This document shows positions 6,459-16,461 of a stretch of 42,906 bases of DNA, piece after piece. The stretch is from Oscillospiraceae bacterium (GTDB lineage: Bacteria > Bacillota > Clostridia > Oscillospirales > Oscillospiraceae): contig JAFQBN010000037.1 of the NCBI GenBank assembly GCA_017416685.1, positions 1 through 42,906 on the forward strand. Direction: 5' to 3'. The notes beneath the pieces were generated by a model. That model made no database searches. It was not told the DNA's origin and was given only the letters and a program-made list of their open reading frames with translations. The translations under genes were made by a program, and so were the position numbers. Every line of letters starts with the position of its first letter. Position 1 is the stretch's first letter.

Positions 6459-6734
6459 GTGACCATCAACAACAAGACTATGACTGATCTGGAGCGGAAG
6501 GCCGCCCTGTCCCTGACCGATACCGAGCGGGTCGTGCTGACTGACCAGATGAACGCTGTGCTGGCCTGTCTGGACGTGCTGCGCGCCTGCCCGGATTGCC
6601 CACCTGCTGAGCAGGAATCACCCTGTCCCCTGCGCGCCGACGAGGTGTGTCCCTCCACAGACCGGGCCGCCCTGCTGTCCAACGCTCCGGAGACGGACGG
6701 AACGTTCTTTTTCGTCCCCCGGACCGTGGAGTGA
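6459..6734 (+). CDS. gatC: Asp-tRNA(Asn)/Glu-tRNA(Gln) amidotransferase subunit C
   Basis: This 91-residue subunit stabilises the GatCAB complex that converts Glu-tRNA(Gln) and Asp-tRNA(Asn) to Gln-tRNA and Asn-tRNA. The protein is divergent and recognised mainly by size, by the N-terminal ERKAALSLTDTE helix and by position immediately before gatA. It ends with an FFFVPRTVE tail, like the FxVPkvl end of the family. The start is GTG at 6459 with AAGGAGG at 6445-6451. An in-frame ATG at 6480 would shorten it by seven residues. gatA begins eight bases after its stop. Confidence 0.88.
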   Translation: MTINNKTMTDLERKAALSLTDTERVVLTDQMNAVLACLDVLRACPDCPPAEQESPCPLRADEVCPSTDRAALLSNAPETDGTFFFVPRTVE

Positions 6735-6742
6735 GGTGGACC

Positions 6743-8197
6743 ATGAACACGCTGTTTGAACTGACTGCCCTGGAGCTGGCCGCCGCCATCTCCCGAGGTG
6801 AGCTTTCCAGCAAAGAGGCTTTGCTCTTCTCCAATTCCGCTTGTACCGCAAACGCCGACAAGTTAAATTGCTTCACATCATTTTCTGCCTCCGATCCCAT
6901 TGCCGCCGCCCCCGTTTCGCCCCTTTCCGGTGTCCCCATGGCGGTGAAGGACAACATCTGCGTAGCCGGAACTGCCACCACCTGCGCCAGCCGCATGCTG
7001 CGCGATTTTATCCCGCCCTACACCGCCACAGCGGTGGAAAAACTGACCGCTGCGGGCGCAGTTTGTGCGGGCAAAACCAATCTGGACGAGTTTGCCATCG
7101 GCTCCACCTCCGAGACCTCTTTCTTCGGTCCGGTGAAAAATCCGTGGAATTTGGAATACAGTCCCGGCGGTTCCTCCGGCGGCAGCGCCGCTGCCGTTGC
7201 CGCGGGATTGGTTTGGTATGCCCTGGGTTCTGACACCGGCGGCTCCATCCGCCACCCCGCCGCCTGCTGCGGTGTCACCGGCATGAAACCCACCTACGGC
7301 ACGGTGTCCCGCTACGGCCTTGTGTCTTACGCATCCTCCTTCGATCAGATCGGCCCCATCGCCCGGAACGCAGCGGACTGCGCCGCCGTGCTGGACATGA
7401 TCCGCGGTCATGACGGGCGGGACAGCACCAGCCTGCCCGGTCCTTATTTGCCCCTGTCCCCCCAACTGACCGGCGATCTGCACGGTGTACGCATCGGCAT
7501 CCCCGACGTGTATTTTGACGAAGCGGTGGATGAACCCACCCGCCGTGCCATTCTCTCCTGCGCCGACACTTTGCGCCGGCGGGGCGCTTTGGTGGAGTCC
7601 TGTCATGCCGTCGGCCTTGAACACGCCGTCCACGCCTACTACGTCCTCGCCTGCGCGCAGGCAAGCTCCAATCTCGCCCGGTACGACGGCGTGCGCTACG
7701 GCTGCCGCGCGGAAGATACCCACGACGTGCAGGATCTGTTCGTCCGCAGCCGCTCCCTCGGCTTCGGTCGGGAAGTCCGGCGGCGCATCCTGCTGGGTAC
7801 CTATCTGCTCAGCGGTGACAACTACGAAACTTACTACAAAAAGGCCGTGGCCGTCCGCCATCAGGTGGAGAATACCTTCCGCGCCCTTTGGCATAATTAC
7901 GATCTGCTGCTGACCCCGGTCCTCCCCGGTCCGCCTCCCAAACTGGGTCAGGAGGCCAACAACCCCGTCGCTTTGTATCAGGAGGACCGCTACGTGGCCT
8001 GTGCCAATCTGGCGGGTCTGCCCGCCCTTTCCATGCCCTGCGGTATGCACAAGGAGGGTCTGCCTATCGGAGCGCAGCTTCTTGGCCCCCACATGGCTGA
8101 CGGCGCGGTGCTGAACGCCGCCTTTGCCTTCCAGCAGGAGACGGATTTCCACCGCCTCCATCCCCCCATTTTCGGTTTGGGAGGTGACGCAGGATGA
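6743..8197 (+). CDS. gatA: Asp-tRNA(Asn)/Glu-tRNA(Gln) amidotransferase subunit A
   Basis: This 484-residue amidase-signature enzyme releases ammonia from glutamine and feeds it to GatB. The Ser-cisSer-Lys machinery is intact: Lys in MAVKDN (K69), the glycine/serine loop SPGGSSGGSAAA (about 140-151) and the nucleophile in GSDTGGS (S168), followed by ACCGVTGMKPTYG. Length is normal. The ATG at 6743 has a GAGGTGG site just upstream, and the frame's earlier part overlaps gatC. It overlaps gatB by four bases (ATGA), which indicates translational coupling. Confidence 0.97.
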   Translation: MNTLFELTALELAAAISRGELSSKEALLFSNSACTANADKLNCFTSFSASDPIAAAPVSPLSGVPMAVKDNICVAGTATTCASRMLRDFIPPYTATAVEKLTAAGAVCAGKTNLDEFAIGSTSETSFFGPVKNPWNLEYSPGGSSGGSAAAVAAGLVWYALGSDTGGSIRHPAACCGVTGMKPTYGTVSRYGLVSYASSFDQIGPIARNAADCAAVLDMIRGHDGRDSTSLPGPYLPLSPQLTGDLHGVRIGIPDVYFDEAVDEPTRRAILSCADTLRRRGALVESCHAVGLEHAVHAYYVLACAQASSNLARYDGVRYGCRAEDTHDVQDLFVRSRSLGFGREVRRRILLGTYLLSGDNYETYYKKAVAVRHQVENTFRALWHNYDLLLTPVLPGPPPKLGQEANNPVALYQEDRYVACANLAGLPALSMPCGMHKEGLPIGAQLLGPHMADGAVLNAAFAFQQETDFHRLHPPIFGLGGDAG

Positions 8198-9618
8198 ACT
8201 GGGAAATCGTCATCGGGTTGGAAACCCACGTGGAACTGGCTACAAGGAGCAAAATCTTCTGCGGCTGTTCCACCGCCTTCGGCGCTGCGCCCAACACCCT
8301 GTGCTGCCCGGTGTGTCTCGGTCTGCCCGGCGCTCTGCCCGTGCTGAATGAACAGGCCGTGGAACTGGCTGTGAAAGCCGCCCTTGCCCTGAACTGCACC
8401 GTCACCCCGGTCAGCCGGTTCGACCGCAAGAATTACTTTTACCCTGATCTTCCCAAGGCCTATCAGATCAGCCAGCTGTACGCCCCTCTGGCCCGGAACG
8501 GGCATCTGGACCTGCCCGATGGCAGGCGGATACGCATCAGCGAGATGCACCTTGAAGAAGATGCGGGCAAGCTGCACCATCACGACGACCGCACCGCCAT
8601 TGACTACAACCGCTGCGGTGTTCCGCTCATTGAGATCGTCACCGCCCCGGATCTTTCCGGCGGTGAGGATGCCGTCGCCTATCTGGAGCGATTGCGCTCC
8701 ATCCTGCAGTATTTGGGCGTGTCCGACTGCCGTATGGAGGAGGGGTCTTTGCGCTGCGACGTCAACCTGTCCGTCCGCCCGGCGGGCAGCAGTGAGCTGG
8801 GCGTGCGCACAGAGCTGAAAAATCTCGGTTCCCTCCGGGCCGTCCGTTTGGCCTGTGAGTACGAGGCGCAGCGGCAGATCGCCATTCTGGAGTCCGGCGG
8901 TCAGGTGCGCTGCCAGACCTGCCGCTGGGACGAGGATGCCCGCCGCACCGTCCCCATGCGGGACAAGGAACAGGTGGGCGACTACCGCTACTTCCCTGAC
9001 CCAGACCTGCCGCCGCTGGCGGTAAGCGGAGAACAGTTGAATCGCCTGCGCTCGAAGCAGCCGGAGCTGGCTCACGAGAAGTGCGCCCGCTACGCCCGGG
9101 ACTGGTCTTTGAGTGACTACGACTGTACCACCCTGACCTCCCGACGGGAACTGGCAGCGTTCTTCGAACAGGTGGTCTCCCTCGGCGCACCGCCCAAACA
9201 AGCCGCCAACTGGATCATGGGGCAGGTTTTGCGCCGCCTCAGTGCAGACGGCCTTGATGTGGAGGAAATTCCCATAACTGCGCAGGCTCTGGCGGACCTT
9301 ATTCATCTGGTAGAGCGCGGAACGATCAACCGCAATACCGCAGTGGAGGTATTTGACGCCGTCTTCACCGGCGGTGACCCTACCCAATACGTCCGCGCCC
9401 ACCATTTGGAGCAGTCCTCCAACACAGAACAGATCACCGCCGCGGTGGAGGAAACTTTGTCTCAAAACCGCAAATCGGTGGAAGATTGGCTGTCCGGGAA
9501 AGAAAAAGCCGCCGGTTTTCTCATGGGACAGGCTATGCGCACTCTGGGCGGCAAGGCACCTCCCGCCCTTGTCAGCGAAATCGTTCGACAATTGTTGGAA
9601 CGGGAAAAATCTCAGTGA
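8194..9618 (+). CDS. gatB: Asp-tRNA(Asn)/Glu-tRNA(Gln) amidotransferase subunit B
   Basis: This 474-residue kinase-like subunit phosphorylates the misacylated Glu/Asp-tRNA and then amidates it with ammonia from GatA. The start WEIVIGLETHVEL, the zinc-site cysteines (CGCSTAF, CCPVCLGLPGALPVLN), FDRKNYFYPDLPKAYQISQ, and the C-terminal YqeY-like tRNA-binding domain with NWIMGQV and GFLMGQAM are visible. Length is normal. It closes the ribU-to-gatB run of genes. A perfect palindrome and then a strong terminator follow. Confidence 0.97.
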   Translation: MNWEIVIGLETHVELATRSKIFCGCSTAFGAAPNTLCCPVCLGLPGALPVLNEQAVELAVKAALALNCTVTPVSRFDRKNYFYPDLPKAYQISQLYAPLARNGHLDLPDGRRIRISEMHLEEDAGKLHHHDDRTAIDYNRCGVPLIEIVTAPDLSGGEDAVAYLERLRSILQYLGVSDCRMEEGSLRCDVNLSVRPAGSSELGVRTELKNLGSLRAVRLACEYEAQRQIAILESGGQVRCQTCRWDEDARRTVPMRDKEQVGDYRYFPDPDLPPLAVSGEQLNRLRSKQPELAHEKCARYARDWSLSDYDCTTLTSRRELAAFFEQVVSLGAPPKQAANWIMGQVLRRLSADGLDVEEIPITAQALADLIHLVERGTINRNTAVEVFDAVFTGGDPTQYVRAHHLEQSSNTEQITAAVEETLSQNRKSVEDWLSGKEKAAGFLMGQAMRTLGGKAPPALVSEIVRQLLEREKSQ

Positions 9619-11931: not shown

Positions 11932-14379
11932 ATGGCAGAAAACAGAACCCAGCGCACTCAGCGGCAGGAGCGCACCTCCAAACAGCTGATTTTCCGCCGC
12001 ACCGCCATCCTGATGGGTCTGTTCGGTGTGTTCACCTTCGGCGTTCTGGGCTGGAAGCTCTGGGATGTCTCCATCCGCCATCACGAGGAGTACCAGCTGC
12101 GCCAGCTGCAGCAATCCACCCGCGACGTGGAGGTCAAGTCCAACCGGGGCTACATCCGGGACAGCAGCGGCAACGTTTTGGCCATGTCCGCCACCGTGTA
12201 CAACCTGATCCTTTCCCCCCGCGACCTTATCAACAGCATCAGCCAGCGGCAGTTCAAGCAGGCCGACGGCACCATTGACGAGACCGCCTATCAGGCCGCC
12301 ATTCAGGCCCGCCGTGACCTCATCTGCGACGAGGTCTGCACCGTCCTCGGCCTTGACCGGGACGACGTGGTCCGCCGACTGAACAAAGTCAACTCCCAGT
12401 ACGAAGTGCTGAAGAAAAATATCGAGGGCGCCGAGGCCGAACGGCTGCAGGCCTTTATCGCCGACAACAAGCTGGGCTACTCCCTCATCATGACCCCCAC
12501 CACCAAGCGCTACTACCCCATGTCCACCGTGGCCGCCCACGTAGTCGGCTTCGTCAATGAGAATGGCGGCGCTTACGGTGTGGAGGCCGCTTACGAGCAG
12601 CTGCTGGAGGGCCGTTCCGGCCGCGTGGTCACCACCCAGACCGGCGCCGGCACCGAAATGTACAACAGCTACTCCAACTACATCGACGCCGAGGACGGCA
12701 GCAGCATCACCCTGACCATCGACAGCACCATCCAGCGCATGGCCGAGCAGACACTCGCCGCAGGCATTGAAAAGTACGATGTGCAAAATGGCGGCATCTG
12801 CATTGTCATGAACCCCAAGACCTGTGCCGTGCTGGCCATGGCCAGTTCCCCCACCTACGATTTGAACGCTTACGGCACGGTCCACGAGGAGACCCTGAAC
12901 CGTCAGGCCGCCGCCCGTAAGGAGCAATATTATCAGCAGTACAAAACCCAGAATCTCACCGATGAGGACGGCAATCCTTTGAGCGACGAGGACCTGCGCA
13001 GCAAAGCCTCCTCCGCCGCCATCTCCGCCGCCCTCAACCAGCAGTGGCGCAACAAGGTACTCAACGACACCTATGAACCCGGCTCCACCTTCAAGTCCGT
13101 GGTGCTTGCCGCCGCACTGGAGGCCGGTGTCATCTCCGAGAGCGACCACTTCTTCTGCCCCGGTTACTACGTGGTTGCCGGACGCACCATCCACTGCTCC
13201 GAGCGCAGCGGACACGGCGACCAGACTCTGGCCGAAGCAGTGCAGAACTCCTGCAACCCCGCGTTCATGATGATCGGTCAGCGCCTTGGCGCAGAAACGT
13301 TCTACGACTATTTCGAGGCCTTTGGTCTGAAGGATGCCACCGGCATCGACCTGCCCGGCGAGGCCACCGGCGTTGTGTGGGACCGTGACTACTTCGTCAG
13401 TCCCGAGGGTTATCAGTCTCTCGCCACCGCCTCTTTCGGTCAGCGTTTTACCGTCAGCCCCCTGCAGCTGCTGTCCGCCTTCTCCGCCACCGTCAACGGC
13501 GGCTACCTCATGCAGCCTCACGTGCTGAAGGCCATCAGCGACTCCGAGGGCAACATCATTCGCCAGACCGAACCCACCGTCATCCGTCAGGTGGTCAGCG
13601 AGAACACCAGCCGCAAGGCCGCTGAAATTCTGGAAAGCGTGGTCAGTGAAGGCACCGGCCGCAACGCTTACGTGGCCGGCTACCGCATCGGCGGCAAGAC
13701 CGGTACCGCCGAAGGCGAGGTCGGCACCCAGGACGAGGAGATCGTATCCTTCGTCGGCTTTGCCCCCGCCGAGGACCCTCAGGTCATCGTTCTGCTGTAC
13801 TTTGACACGCCCAAGCACGCCTCCCCCGGCAGCAAGTACGGCTCCACCGGCTACTACATCAGCGGCGGCCAGATGGCCGCTCCCATGGCGGGTCAGCTCA
13901 TCGCCGAGATCCTGGACTATCTGGGCGTGGAGCGTCAGTACACCCAGTCCGAAGCCGCAGCCGCCGACGTGTCCGTCCCCAAGCTCACCGGCTACGACCT
14001 GACCACAGCTCAGGCCGCCCTCAAGCGTAAGAACCTCACCTGCCGTACCGTCGGTACCGGCACGGTGGTCACCGACCAGATCCCCGCCGTGGGTGCTACC
14101 ATCCCCGGCAACAGCACTGTCATCCTGTACATGGGCCAGCAGGCCCCCACCGAACAGGTCAACGTACCCAACCTGCGCGGTTTGACCTATGATCAGGCCA
14201 AGAAGCGCCTGAACGACCTGGGCCTCTACATGCGGGCCTCCGGCGTGTCCTATTACAGCGCGGTGACCAAGGCCGTGGATCAAAGCTACGGTGCCGGCGA
14301 GGTCGTGGACCGCGGCACCGTTATCCCCGTCCGTTTCGTGGACACCAGCGTATCCGACGGCTATTCCCCCCTGGAGTGA
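11932..14379 (+). CDS. pbpB: Class B penicillin-binding protein with two PASTA domains
   Basis: This 815-residue septal transpeptidase cross-links peptidoglycan together with FtsW. After a basic N terminus and one membrane anchor (about 23-45) comes the class B dimerisation domain. The transpeptidase domain carries STFK (S385-K388), SCN (S440-N442) and KTGTA (from K589). Two PASTA domains follow, beginning SVPKLTGYDLTTAQAALK and NVPNLRGLTYDQAKKRL. This architecture is shared by PBP2B and the sporulation protein SpoVD of Bacillus; the dcw position favours the septal role, but a sporulation role cannot be excluded. AGGAGG at 11918-11923 sets the ATG. Confidence 0.92.
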   Translation: MAENRTQRTQRQERTSKQLIFRRTAILMGLFGVFTFGVLGWKLWDVSIRHHEEYQLRQLQQSTRDVEVKSNRGYIRDSSGNVLAMSATVYNLILSPRDLINSISQRQFKQADGTIDETAYQAAIQARRDLICDEVCTVLGLDRDDVVRRLNKVNSQYEVLKKNIEGAEAERLQAFIADNKLGYSLIMTPTTKRYYPMSTVAAHVVGFVNENGGAYGVEAAYEQLLEGRSGRVVTTQTGAGTEMYNSYSNYIDAEDGSSITLTIDSTIQRMAEQTLAAGIEKYDVQNGGICIVMNPKTCAVLAMASSPTYDLNAYGTVHEETLNRQAAARKEQYYQQYKTQNLTDEDGNPLSDEDLRSKASSAAISAALNQQWRNKVLNDTYEPGSTFKSVVLAAALEAGVISESDHFFCPGYYVVAGRTIHCSERSGHGDQTLAEAVQNSCNPAFMMIGQRLGAETFYDYFEAFGLKDATGIDLPGEATGVVWDRDYFVSPEGYQSLATASFGQRFTVSPLQLLSAFSATVNGGYLMQPHVLKAISDSEGNIIRQTEPTVIRQVVSENTSRKAAEILESVVSEGTGRNAYVAGYRIGGKTGTAEGEVGTQDEEIVSFVGFAPAEDPQVIVLLYFDTPKHASPGSKYGSTGYYISGGQMAAPMAGQLIAEILDYLGVERQYTQSEAAAADVSVPKLTGYDLTTAQAALKRKNLTCRTVGTGTVVTDQIPAVGATIPGNSTVILYMGQQAPTEQVNVPNLRGLTYDQAKKRLNDLGLYMRASGVSYYSAVTKAVDQSYGAGEVVDRGTVIPVRFVDTSVSDGYSPLE

Positions 14380-14442
14380 CCCTGCGCCGTTCCCGGCGCG
14401 CACAGAGAGAATGAAACCGCCCTTTGAGGGGTGACCCACTTC

Positions 14443-15438
14443 ATGTCACAGCATTCCTGTGCCGCCATGACCCTGATCGCCATCGTCGGCCAAACAGATG
14501 CCCGGCAGAGCGCCTGTCTTCTGCACGCAGCGCTGGAGGGCACTGCTGGTCTTTCCCCCTGTATCATCGGCCCGGACAGTCCTGCATTGTCCTGTGCCGA
14601 GGCCCTGTCCGCTCACCTGCACCGCCTGTCCCTGCAGAACGCGACCCACACCGTCATCGTGCTGGACCGTGCCGCGCTGGCCCGCAGGGTCTGCACCGGT
14701 CTTCACATCAGCGTGACCGCACCGGTGGGACAGGTCATGAACTGGGACGGTCTTGACGACCTGCTGGCCCGGACCGACATGGCAGTATTTGACCTTGACG
14801 AAACGGGTCGGGAGGATTATGTTAGTATCATCCCCCGCCACAGCTTTACCTACTCGGAGAACAAAGGGCGTGCCGACCTGACCGCCCGTAACCTGCGGCT
14901 GTTTCCCGGCCATACGGAGTTCGAGGCCGTGGCCACCGGGCAGATCTGCCGCATCCACCTGCCTATGTGCGGCGGCTTTGCGGTCTACCATGCCCTGTGC
15001 GCCCTGTCCTGCGGCCTGTGCATGGGTCTGGAACTGGGACAGATGGCCCGCCTTCTGCGGGTGGCCCACGGTCCGTCCGGCTGCATGGAGGTTTTGTCCA
15101 TCCCCGCAGCCTACACGGTGCTGCTGGACCGGGCAAGTGACCTGCACAGTTTGGAACGGGTGCTGACCACCGCACGCAGCTTTACCGCACGGCGGCTCGT
15201 ATGTCTCCTGGCCGACGGCAGCCGTCCCATGGAGGAACTTGCCGACCAACTGGCGGACCGGGTGTTGGCTTTCGGCAGCGCACGCTCGGACCGGCGGCAG
15301 GCCATCGTCCGTGGTCTGGATCGGGCAGGTCCCGGCGACGTGCTGGTGCTGACCGGCACAGACGGCGGTGCGGAGGAACGGGCCTTTATCCGGGCCTGCG
15401 CCCACAACTGCGCCCTGCGCCGCAGACGGCAAACATAG
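14443..15438 (+). CDS. MurE-like Mur ligase pseudoenzyme
   Basis: This 331-residue protein sits in the murE slot, between the PBP gene and mraY. It reads along MurE in order: VFDLDETGRED with FTYSENKGRADLTARN resembles the MurE segment with Asn-Asp and tyrosine-glycine motifs; GGFAVYHALCALSCG matches the nucleotide-domain hinge HNxxNxxAA; GCMEV (213-217) matches GRMEV; DRASDLHSLE matches DYAHTPDSLE; DRRQAI followed by GDVLVLTG matches the DRxxAI...GDxVLIAGKGHE end. Every catalytic motif is changed: the P-loop GTNGKT is GQTDARQS (16-23), DNPR is absent and GKGHE is GTDGG (305-309). The N-terminal UDP-MurNAc domain is missing; MurE is usually about 480-500 residues. The reading frame is intact. 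I infer a catalytically dead regulator or scaffold. ATG 14443 follows GAGGGG; GTG 14431 and ATG 14467 are alternatives. Confidence 0.72.
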   Translation: MSQHSCAAMTLIAIVGQTDARQSACLLHAALEGTAGLSPCIIGPDSPALSCAEALSAHLHRLSLQNATHTVIVLDRAALARRVCTGLHISVTAPVGQVMNWDGLDDLLARTDMAVFDLDETGREDYVSIIPRHSFTYSENKGRADLTARNLRLFPGHTEFEAVATGQICRIHLPMCGGFAVYHALCALSCGLCMGLELGQMARLLRVAHGPSGCMEVLSIPAAYTVLLDRASDLHSLERVLTTARSFTARRLVCLLADGSRPMEELADQLADRVLAFGSARSDRRQAIVRGLDRAGPGDVLVLTGTDGGAEERAFIRACAHNCALRRRRQT

Positions 15439-15474: not shown

Positions 15475-16461
15475 ATGACGATCATCATCAGCCTTGTGAT
15501 TTCCTTTGTGGCCTGTGCCCTTTTGGGACACTATCTTATCCCGGCTCTGCGCCGGCTGAAGGCCGGTCAATCCATCAAGGAGATCGGCCCCACCTGGCAT
15601 ATGTCCAAACAGGGCACCCCCACCATGGGTGGGTTGATGTTCATCGGCGGCATCTGCATCGCCACCGTGATCGCCGGCTGGCCCTCCATGATGAAGGGCG
15701 AGTTCACTCACCTGCTGGTTCTTGCCTTTGCGCTGGTATTCGGCATCATCGGCTTTATCGATGACTACGAGAAAGTCAAACACCATCACAACACCGGCCT
15801 GACCGCTCCCCAGAAGTTCCTGCTGCAGCTGGCCGCCTCGGTGGTGTTCGTCATCCTCCTGCGTACCAGCGGCTTTCTGACCCCGAACCTCTACATTCCC
15901 TTCTTCAATGTGGAGCTGCTGCTGCCCTGGCCCGTGTACATGATCTTCGCCGCTTTCGTTATGGTTGGTACAGTCAACGCCGTAAACATCACCGACGGTG
16001 TGGACGGTCTGGCCACGGGTGTGACCCTGCCCGTAGCTGTGTTTTACATTGCCGTGTCCATTTGGTACGGCTACACGCAGCTGGGCGTGTTCGCCGCCGC
16101 TTTGGCCGGCGGTCTGGCCGCTTTCCTCCTTTACAACTTCCACCCCGCCAAGGTGTTCATGGGCGACACCGGTTCCCTGTTCCTGGGCGGTGCGGTCTGC
16201 GGCATGGCCTTTGCCCTGAATATCCCGCTGGTCATCCCCATCATCGGCCTGATCTATGTGGCCGAGGTGCTGTCCGACATCATTCAGGTCGCCTACTTCA
16301 AGCTGACCCACGGCAAGCGTATCTTCCGCATGGCTCCCCTCCACCACCACCTCGAGATGGGCGGTTGGAGCGAAGTTAAGCTGTTTTTCGTCTTCACCCT
16401 GCTGACCGCCGCCCTGTGTGCGCTGGCGTTCCTGGGTGTGATGGATCGAATGTCCCTGTAA
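15475..16461 (+). CDS. mraY: Phospho-N-acetylmuramoyl-pentapeptide transferase
   Basis: This 328-residue enzyme with about ten membrane helices transfers phospho-MurNAc-pentapeptide to undecaprenyl phosphate, forming lipid I on the inner face of the membrane. GTPTMGG, the Asp pair in FIDDYEKV, NAVNITDGVDGLATG, FMGDTGSL and the HHHLE loop are all present, so the active site is complete. Length is normal. GGAGG at 15462-15466 sets the ATG at 15475; an in-frame ATG at 15451 lies before that site. Confidence 0.97.
   Translation: MTIIISLVISFVACALLGHYLIPALRRLKAGQSIKEIGPTWHMSKQGTPTMGGLMFIGGICIATVIAGWPSMMKGEFTHLLVLAFALVFGIIGFIDDYEKVKHHHNTGLTAPQKFLLQLAASVVFVILLRTSGFLTPNLYIPFFNVELLLPWPVYMIFAAFVMVGTVNAVNITDGVDGLATGVTLPVAVFYIAVSIWYGYTQLGVFAAALAGGLAAFLLYNFHPAKVFMGDTGSLFLGGAVCGMAFALNIPLVIPIIGLIYVAEVLSDIIQVAYFKLTHGKRIFRMAPLHHHLEMGGWSEVKLFFVFTLLTAALCALAFLGVMDRMSL

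Follow-up and report, generated by a model that had tools for sequence, protein, structure and literature searches.

The murE position of the division cluster

The window, that is, the whole stretch of 42,906 nucleotides analysed here, comes from an Oscillospiraceae bacterium and carries a division cluster in which the place of murE, between pbp and mraY, is taken by an unusual frame. We refer to this place as the slot. The frame runs uninterrupted within the window from ATG 14443 to 15438 on the + strand, begins only 63 bases after the pbp stop, and encodes 331 amino acids, or 335 if the alternative start GTG 14431 is used. A Shine-Dalgarno-like element stands ahead of the ATG, and the leader around it is kept with small changes across the seven species of the window's genus that have a non-catalytic slot protein. 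The upstream neighbour we take to be a SpoVD/FtsI-type pbp with a PASTA-like C terminus. The features on which the argument draws are the following.

11932..14379, + strand: pbp, upstream neighbour; homologues at the same place in relatives
14427..14434, + strand: Shine-Dalgarno-like AGGGGTGA ahead of ATG 14443
14443..15438, + strand: putative non-catalytic slot MurE (331 amino acids), central and C-terminal domain remnant; from homology, motif comparison and codon test
14488..14511, + strand: former P-loop, GTNGKTTT changed to GQTDARQS; alignment to intact MurE
14788..15033, + strand: retained core, residues about 116-197 (230-311 in G020 numbering), kept in degenerate slot proteins of seven genera
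14917..14928, + strand: EFEA, residues 159-162, part of a slot-specific signature
14989..14991, + strand: His183, at a position where all 57 intact slot MurEs of the genus have Asn (N297, G020 numbering)
15127..15138, + strand: DYAH site changed to DRAS (DYAHSP to DRASDL); alignment to intact MurE
15349..15369, + strand: LAGKGHE changed to LTGTDGG (GKGHE to GTDGG); alignment to intact MurE
15475..16461, + strand: mraY (ATG 15475), downstream neighbour; PF00953 match, alignment intact in seven species

The leader at 14400-14442 reads AGAGAGAATGAAACCGCCCTT..GGGGTGA in the window, is kept with small changes in the seven species and partly in genus g110, and holds a possible mini-frame that starts at ATGAAACC and runs into the Shine-Dalgarno. 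Elsewhere in the window, gatA-/gatB-type amidotransferase genes lie directly 5' of mraZ and mraW (6647-9618), and a fusion of ODP-type metallo-beta-lactamase fold, flavodoxin, flavin reductase and rubredoxin-like domains is found at 1155-2945.

A MurE homologue that has lost its catalytic motifs

By profile comparison the slot protein is a MurE homologue, beyond chance. Pfam Mur_ligase_C passes its cut-off (32.7 bits, cut-off 28.4), Mur_ligase_M stays under its own (16.9 bits, cut-off 24), and the MurE models NF001126 of NCBIfam (E 3.3e-16, but 58.9 bits against a cut-off of 373) and TIGR01085 (53.7 bits against 257.3) match without reaching theirs. Among PDB chains the protein matches the MurE 7b6o (E 2.3e-6), while a profile of 11 degenerate slot proteins retrieves the MurE chain 4bub at E 9e-36 and has its best match in 8f5d ('Multifunctional fusion protein', E 7.2e-37). 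The fold assignment comes from these sequence profiles, and motif loss was judged against intact MurE of the same genus. In that comparison the window frame has no N-terminal UDP-MurNAc domain and has lost the DNPR loop and most of the DHLDYH..K region, with its catalytic lysine and histidine, in addition to the replacements listed above. In MurE the P-loop is for ATP, and the lysine and histidine region is catalytic. A preliminary description of this DNA, made by eye, had recognised the central and C-terminal domains of MurE in an intact 331-residue frame with changed P-loop, DNPR and GKGHE motifs and a missing UDP-MurNAc domain; the profile matches agree with the domain reading, and the alignment confirms each of the losses. 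The protein thus lacks every feature of a catalytic MurE ligase for which its sequence was tested.

Among 64 genomes of the window's genus, 57 have a slot MurE with TGTNGKT, DNPR and GKGHE, and the remaining seven have one without any of the three. Counted from the likely start, the form in three of these seven, including the window, is short, at 331-333 amino acids. Three more have frames of 467-472 amino acids with a remnant of the N-terminal domain, and one has a 379-amino acid frame without this remnant. One branch sets the seven species apart, both in the MraY tree and in the tree built from four cluster proteins. Since a number of the 64 genomes fall well short of completeness, the absence of a gene from any of them is uncertain. 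Decay of the whole division cluster was considered and rejected, as the alignments of MraY, FtsW and MurG look intact and their omega values are 0.044-0.073. The proteins themselves look intact in seven of seven species for MraY, in seven for FtsW (two partial) and in five of seven for MurG.

Degenerate and empty slots in other genera

A scan of the family showed short slot frames outside the genus as well, and in G131, G359, G140 and G099 the order is pbp, degenerate MurE, mraY, ftsW. Short frames in G191 and G305 were rejected as degenerate forms because each is an intact MurE truncated where its contig stops. We searched 400 genomes of the family with a profile built from the degenerate forms and ranked them by score; mraY was then sought in 30 genomes, most with a weak slot MurE match or none, and was located in 26. 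Of the 26 slots read, 10 held a degenerate MurE and 8 were empty. The other 8 comprised a full MurE, three catalytic MurEs with an internal shortening, one MurF-like gene, and three MurE pieces truncated at the locus edge and separated from mraY by another frame. Altogether at least 22 degenerate slot proteins were found in seven genera (7 in the window's genus, 5 in g69, 1 in g78, 2 in g37, 4 in g89, 2 in g110 and 1 in g114), 15 of them outside the window's genus in six genera. This figure is a lower bound and not a rate, since further forms may hide among the intact or weak matches, either very small ones or ones such as that of G176, whose 483-amino acid slot MurE has lost DYAH, DNPR and GKGHE and kept the GKT of the P-loop. 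The slot frames are open as far as they were read in all 22 genomes (G424 in part only). In g89 and g110 they measure 178-197 amino acids from stop to stop, with start codons unsure, and comprise the central domain alone.

The eight empty slots, in which mraY follows pbp with no MurE between, belong to five genera within this weak-signal sample of 26 (loci L149, L151, L152, L153, L155, L160, L165 and L166). Four of them are in g69, beside species whose slot protein persists. A complete second MurE was found in four of the eight genomes; in two others the search gave no MurE match elsewhere (completeness 71% and 97%), and in the last two it gave only a remote Mur ligase without the motifs. The alignments show that the slot MurE has degenerated in other genera of the family too. 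Orthologues between pbp and mraY in many Oscillospiraceae, a check proposed in the preliminary description, do occur in relatives, but they are a minority in the genus, patchy in the family, and the slot is sometimes empty.

Two further arrangements were met before mraY. In G226 the gene directly upstream reads as MurF and not MurE (locus L164, 101-1481). In three genomes of genus g30 the slot MurE is catalytic by its motifs (P-loop, DYAH, DNPR and GKGHE; frames of 410-436 amino acids) and has lost a beta segment (L168, 66-1299; L169, 280-1510; L170, 182-1490). Judged by alignment, the g30 protein is the mirror image of the degenerate slot proteins, which keep that segment.

The relationships among the host genomes were examined in a tree of pbp, mraY, ftsW and murG from 52 genomes, with G226 left out. 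Degenerate slots sit at separate places in this tree. A single clade uniting all 22 with the four empty-slot g69 genomes was rejected (p-AU 1.6e-6), and a single clade of the genus's seven with g110 was compatible with the data (p 0.138). Because the single clade is rejected, slot degeneration had at least two origins, and more on the best tree, unless an intact gene came back by transfer. We do not claim four independent origins, given the compatibility of the genus's seven with g110.

A complete MurE elsewhere in the genome

A Mur_ligase_M search of the window's assembly returned four other ligases. Two are a complete MurE and MurC according to NCBIfam, and the other two, by reading, are a MurF adjoining ddl, and MurD. 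The search for murE elsewhere in the genome that the preliminary description had called for therefore has a positive answer: this second MurE (MurE2) keeps all motifs and lies directly after dapF (locus L075, 7376-9674). After the pair in the window's genome follow miaB, mutS, mutL and miaA, named by reading. At 63% identity or more, MurE2 is present in 14 of the 64 genomes of the genus, namely in all seven with a non-catalytic slot and in 7 of the 57 with an intact one. Since a second MurE can do the ligase step, catalytic loss in the slot is unsurprising.

The same holds in other genera. Every one of the 21 degenerate-slot genomes searched (all but G176), including 14 of 14 outside the window's genus, has a complete second MurE, and these second MurEs carry P-loop, DYAH, DNPR and GKGHE. 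They fall into three clades, one of the window's genus with g110, one of g69, g78 and g37, and one of g89; outside the window's clade they are 45-52% identical to the window's MurE2. In the first two clades MurE2 adjoins dapF in every one of 18 loci. In g89, where the loci span only 3.1-4.4 kb, dapF was beside MurE in none of eight. Another Mur-ligase-like protein (for example G399:C3:107452-108807), 33-40% identical to MurE2 and mostly in frames of 510-890 amino acids, is common in the intact-slot genomes of the genus and adjoins the relocated MurE in six of eight g89 genomes.

The part of the protein that is kept

We sought the common denominator of the degenerate proteins by scoring the 220 conserved columns, those shared by at least 95% of the 57 intact slot MurEs. 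The scores were taken in nine subgroups, which together comprise 20 degenerate proteins (G424 and G176 being left out); subgroups that belong to one genus are not independent of each other. Of its 38 conserved columns the second half of the central domain, termed the core here, keeps 17-28, and the half that contains the P-loop keeps 7-24 of 69. In nine of nine subgroups the core is kept more than the P-loop half, with p from 0.014 to 2.6e-9. The C-terminal domain, with 86 columns, keeps 36-42 in the window's genus, 20-48 in g69 and g78, and 0-2 in g37, g110 and g89. Because it too is kept in some genera, the core is the common part and not the only part kept.

The core also carries a signature of the slot. 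To find it, the 22 degenerate proteins were compared with intact slot MurEs (57 from the genus and 15 from other genera) and with 36 second MurEs. Thirty-three residues characterise slot MurE and are seldom found in second MurEs, 11 of them in the core and 22 outside. Ten of the 11 core residues are kept in 73-100% of the 22 degenerate proteins (Y251, E253, R266, L267, E273, F274, E275, A276, R284 and L306), the slot-specificity of F274 being unsure because the slot and second MurE alignments may be out of register there. Outside the core only two of the 22 reach this level, L118 and L312, and L312 is directly beside the core. The catalytic residues fared differently: the P-loop lysine is kept in 3 of the 22 degenerate proteins (14%) and the invariant Asn297 in 1 (5%).

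Purifying selection on the slot protein

Selection was measured with a codon likelihood model written for this analysis. For a triad consisting of the window, G029 and G064, the slot gene gave an omega of 0.110 over 336 codons, and fixing omega at 1 was worse by a 2dlnL of 318.8. In 20 neutral simulations omega lay between 0.74 and 1.46 and 2dlnL reached at most 9.0. By part, omega was 0.193 up to residue 111, 0.056 for residues 112-211, 0.069 for 212-260 and 0.067 for 261-331. The controls in the same triad were 0.041 for pbp, 0.073 for mraY, 0.044 for ftsW, 0.061 for murG and 0.046 for murE2, so that beyond residue 111 the slot protein lies inside the range of its neighbours and of the complete MurE2. 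Three intact slot MurEs of the genus gave 0.082. Summed synonymous change in the triad slot gene is above that of pbp, mraY, murG and murE2 and below that of ftsW; since it is not lowered relative to the neighbours, there is no sign of constraint on the slot DNA itself.

Wider samples gave the same picture. Six of the seven non-catalytic species, without the most divergent one (G066), had an omega of 0.136. Within the three long forms the N-terminal remnant had 0.334 and the remainder 0.132. In a joint tree with intact relatives the non-catalytic crown had 0.123 and the intact branches 0.080, and on the stem branch leading to the crown synonymous change ran to the bound of 20. Outside the genus omega was 0.069 in g89, 0.078 and 0.130 in two groups of g69, 0.136 in g37 and 0.248 in g110, and a value of 1 was rejected in each test in these four genera (2dlnL 26.8-248); values from distant pairs are rough. 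With the window's genus this makes five measurable lineages, g78 and g114 having one member each. Motif loss combined with a long open frame, from which the preliminary description had argued for selection, is insufficient by itself, and it is the codon test that supplies the selection. Its claim of selection on a non-catalytic role is supported by omega far below 1 in all five lineages and by the MurE elsewhere in the genome. It had also named a scattered distribution with neutral evolution as grounds against itself: the distribution is indeed scattered, and the evolution is not neutral. We are very confident that the slot protein of the window's clade is a constrained, non-catalytic protein, and by the sequence and selection criteria together it is a MurE-derived pseudoenzyme.

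A docking surface as the proposed role

As read from the alignments, the window gene descends from the division-cluster MurE. Our best reading overall, with a probability of roughly 0.6, is that selection preserves this MurE-derived pseudoenzyme for a surface used in docking or as a scaffold; the docking or scaffold role taken by itself we infer at about even odds. The slot MurE would have a non-catalytic duty besides ligation, namely docking to the wall-synthesis machinery, where the partner might be MurG, MraY, FtsW, the PBP or another Mur ligase, and any one of these named singly is doubtful. Docking would take place through the face bearing the TYSE/EFEA signature. With ligation taken over by a second MurE, in many cases next to dapF, the ligase parts of the slot gene would be free to decay; in the window's clade the central and C-terminal domains would stay, and elsewhere little beyond the module would. 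A shared partner, most simply one encoded in the same cluster, would explain the constraint, the slot position and the common module together. In its general form the proposal is more tentative, and we hold it at somewhat less than an even chance: slot MurE may have two separable duties, ligation and docking, the latter through a central-domain module some 80 residues long, and may have been stripped towards the module more than once, exposing an interface that is hidden in ordinary MurE.

Several observations bound this proposal. The module is dispensable in g69, since four slots there are empty beside species that keep it. It is not the sole selected part in the window's clade, because the C-terminal domain (0.067) and the residues up to 111 (0.193) are also constrained. 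Not all bacteria with MurE in the slot need the core surface, because the catalytic slot MurE of g30 has lost the beta segment. The core also holds hydrophobic fold residues, and its retention could mean only that the remnant must fold for some other purpose.

The partner could instead be the replacement enzyme, with the slot protein acting as a partner or allosteric pseudo-subunit that tunes or stabilises it. The presence of a complete second MurE in each of the 21 degenerate-slot genomes searched fits this idea, and dimers of a MurE-MurF fusion are known, according to the portion of the source consulted (PMC6420597). Against it, the replacements come from three clades, those outside the window's clade being 45-52% identical to its MurE2, yet one core is retained throughout, and the window's type of MurE2 also occurs in seven genomes of the genus whose slot is intact. 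Because the replacements form three clades and the same module is kept, a shared wall-synthesis protein is the likelier partner, and we regard the replacement enzyme as an unlikely one.

A second possibility is that the remnant is a ligand sensor or regulator, which binds a nucleotide, an amino acid or a precursor and reports it. In most remnants part of the first strand-loop-helix of the former P-loop fold does survive (G108 in 19 of 21 degenerate proteins, L118 in 20), and G131, G359 and G176 retain the GKT of the P-loop. Against this stand the loss of the P-loop lysine and the invariant Asn in most degenerate proteins, the absence of the UDP-MurNAc domain from the window's form, and the fact that the best-kept part of the protein is not the former P-loop half. 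A sensor is on these grounds improbable, and the docking surface remains our preferred reading.

That the frame is kept merely for translation coupling or against polarity between pbp and mraY, its amino acids being irrelevant, would suit the short gaps to both neighbours in the window and its near relatives, but is scarcely credible when the amino acids are constrained far beyond mere openness (core omega 0.06) and empty-slot genomes join pbp directly to mraY. A dying pseudogene, drifting since the arrival of the second MurE and open by chance in high-GC DNA, would account for vanished motifs, stepwise domain deletion and empty slots in some relatives, yet it is refuted for the window's clade by the codon test (omega 0.11, neutrality rejected at 2dlnL 319, with the simulations as control) and has hardly any probability left elsewhere, with omega under 1 in g89, g69, g37 and g110 and frames open in 22 genomes as far as read, G424 partially.

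Relation to known systems

The window protein shares with the MurE ligase its descent, its place in the division cluster and the sequence of the central and C-terminal domains, and differs from it in lacking the UDP-MurNAc domain, the P-loop lysine, the catalytic lysine region, DYAH, DNPR and GKGHE. Another Mur-ligase-fold protein with a different job is MurT, of MurT/GatD, which keeps ATP binding, whereas the window protein has lost the P-loop. The 11-protein profile matches MurT weakly (E 0.07), and a Pfam scan of the window protein at E up to 10 gave no MurT-type domain, only two Mur ligase models.

Two further systems offer likenesses, each drawn from the portion of the source that was consulted. 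PAP11 is a MurE-like subunit of the plastid RNA polymerase, and its contacts partly involve the MurE C-terminal domain (PMC12681378). Both the window protein and the 11-protein profile match PAP11 chains. PAP11 is likewise a MurE homologue serving as part of another complex, but it is a plant protein outside any division cluster; and where the contacts described for PAP11 involve the C-terminal domain, the slot proteins have in common half of the central domain, the C-terminal domain being largely or wholly lost in g37, g89 and g110. In Bordetella pertussis, MurE-MurF is reported to bind MurG in a Mur complex (PMC6420597), which is a case of a MurE-containing protein docking to MurG, the kind of role proposed for the slot protein. 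The Bordetella protein differs in being bifunctional, and a pseudoenzyme is not described in the consulted portion of that paper.

Pseudoenzymes as such are a known kind. In the open-access literature searched we found no paper joining 'pseudoenzyme' and 'Mur ligase', and related searches, read as titles and starts of abstracts for up to 15 matches per query, gave no account of a degenerate MurE in this slot, which is not proof of novelty; a repeated reduction of the slot MurE, as it appears from the sequences, was not met with in the literature searched.

The finding bears on two old questions, whether the cytoplasmic Mur enzymes form a physical complex and why murE stands in the division cluster of many bacteria. 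Both have been hard to test because murE is essential. In the degenerate-slot genomes the catalysis and the cluster position of MurE are naturally separated. Because a complete MurE is present elsewhere, the slot protein could be deleted, tagged or pulled down without blocking precursor synthesis, and the shortest slot forms would be natural minimal baits for the partner.
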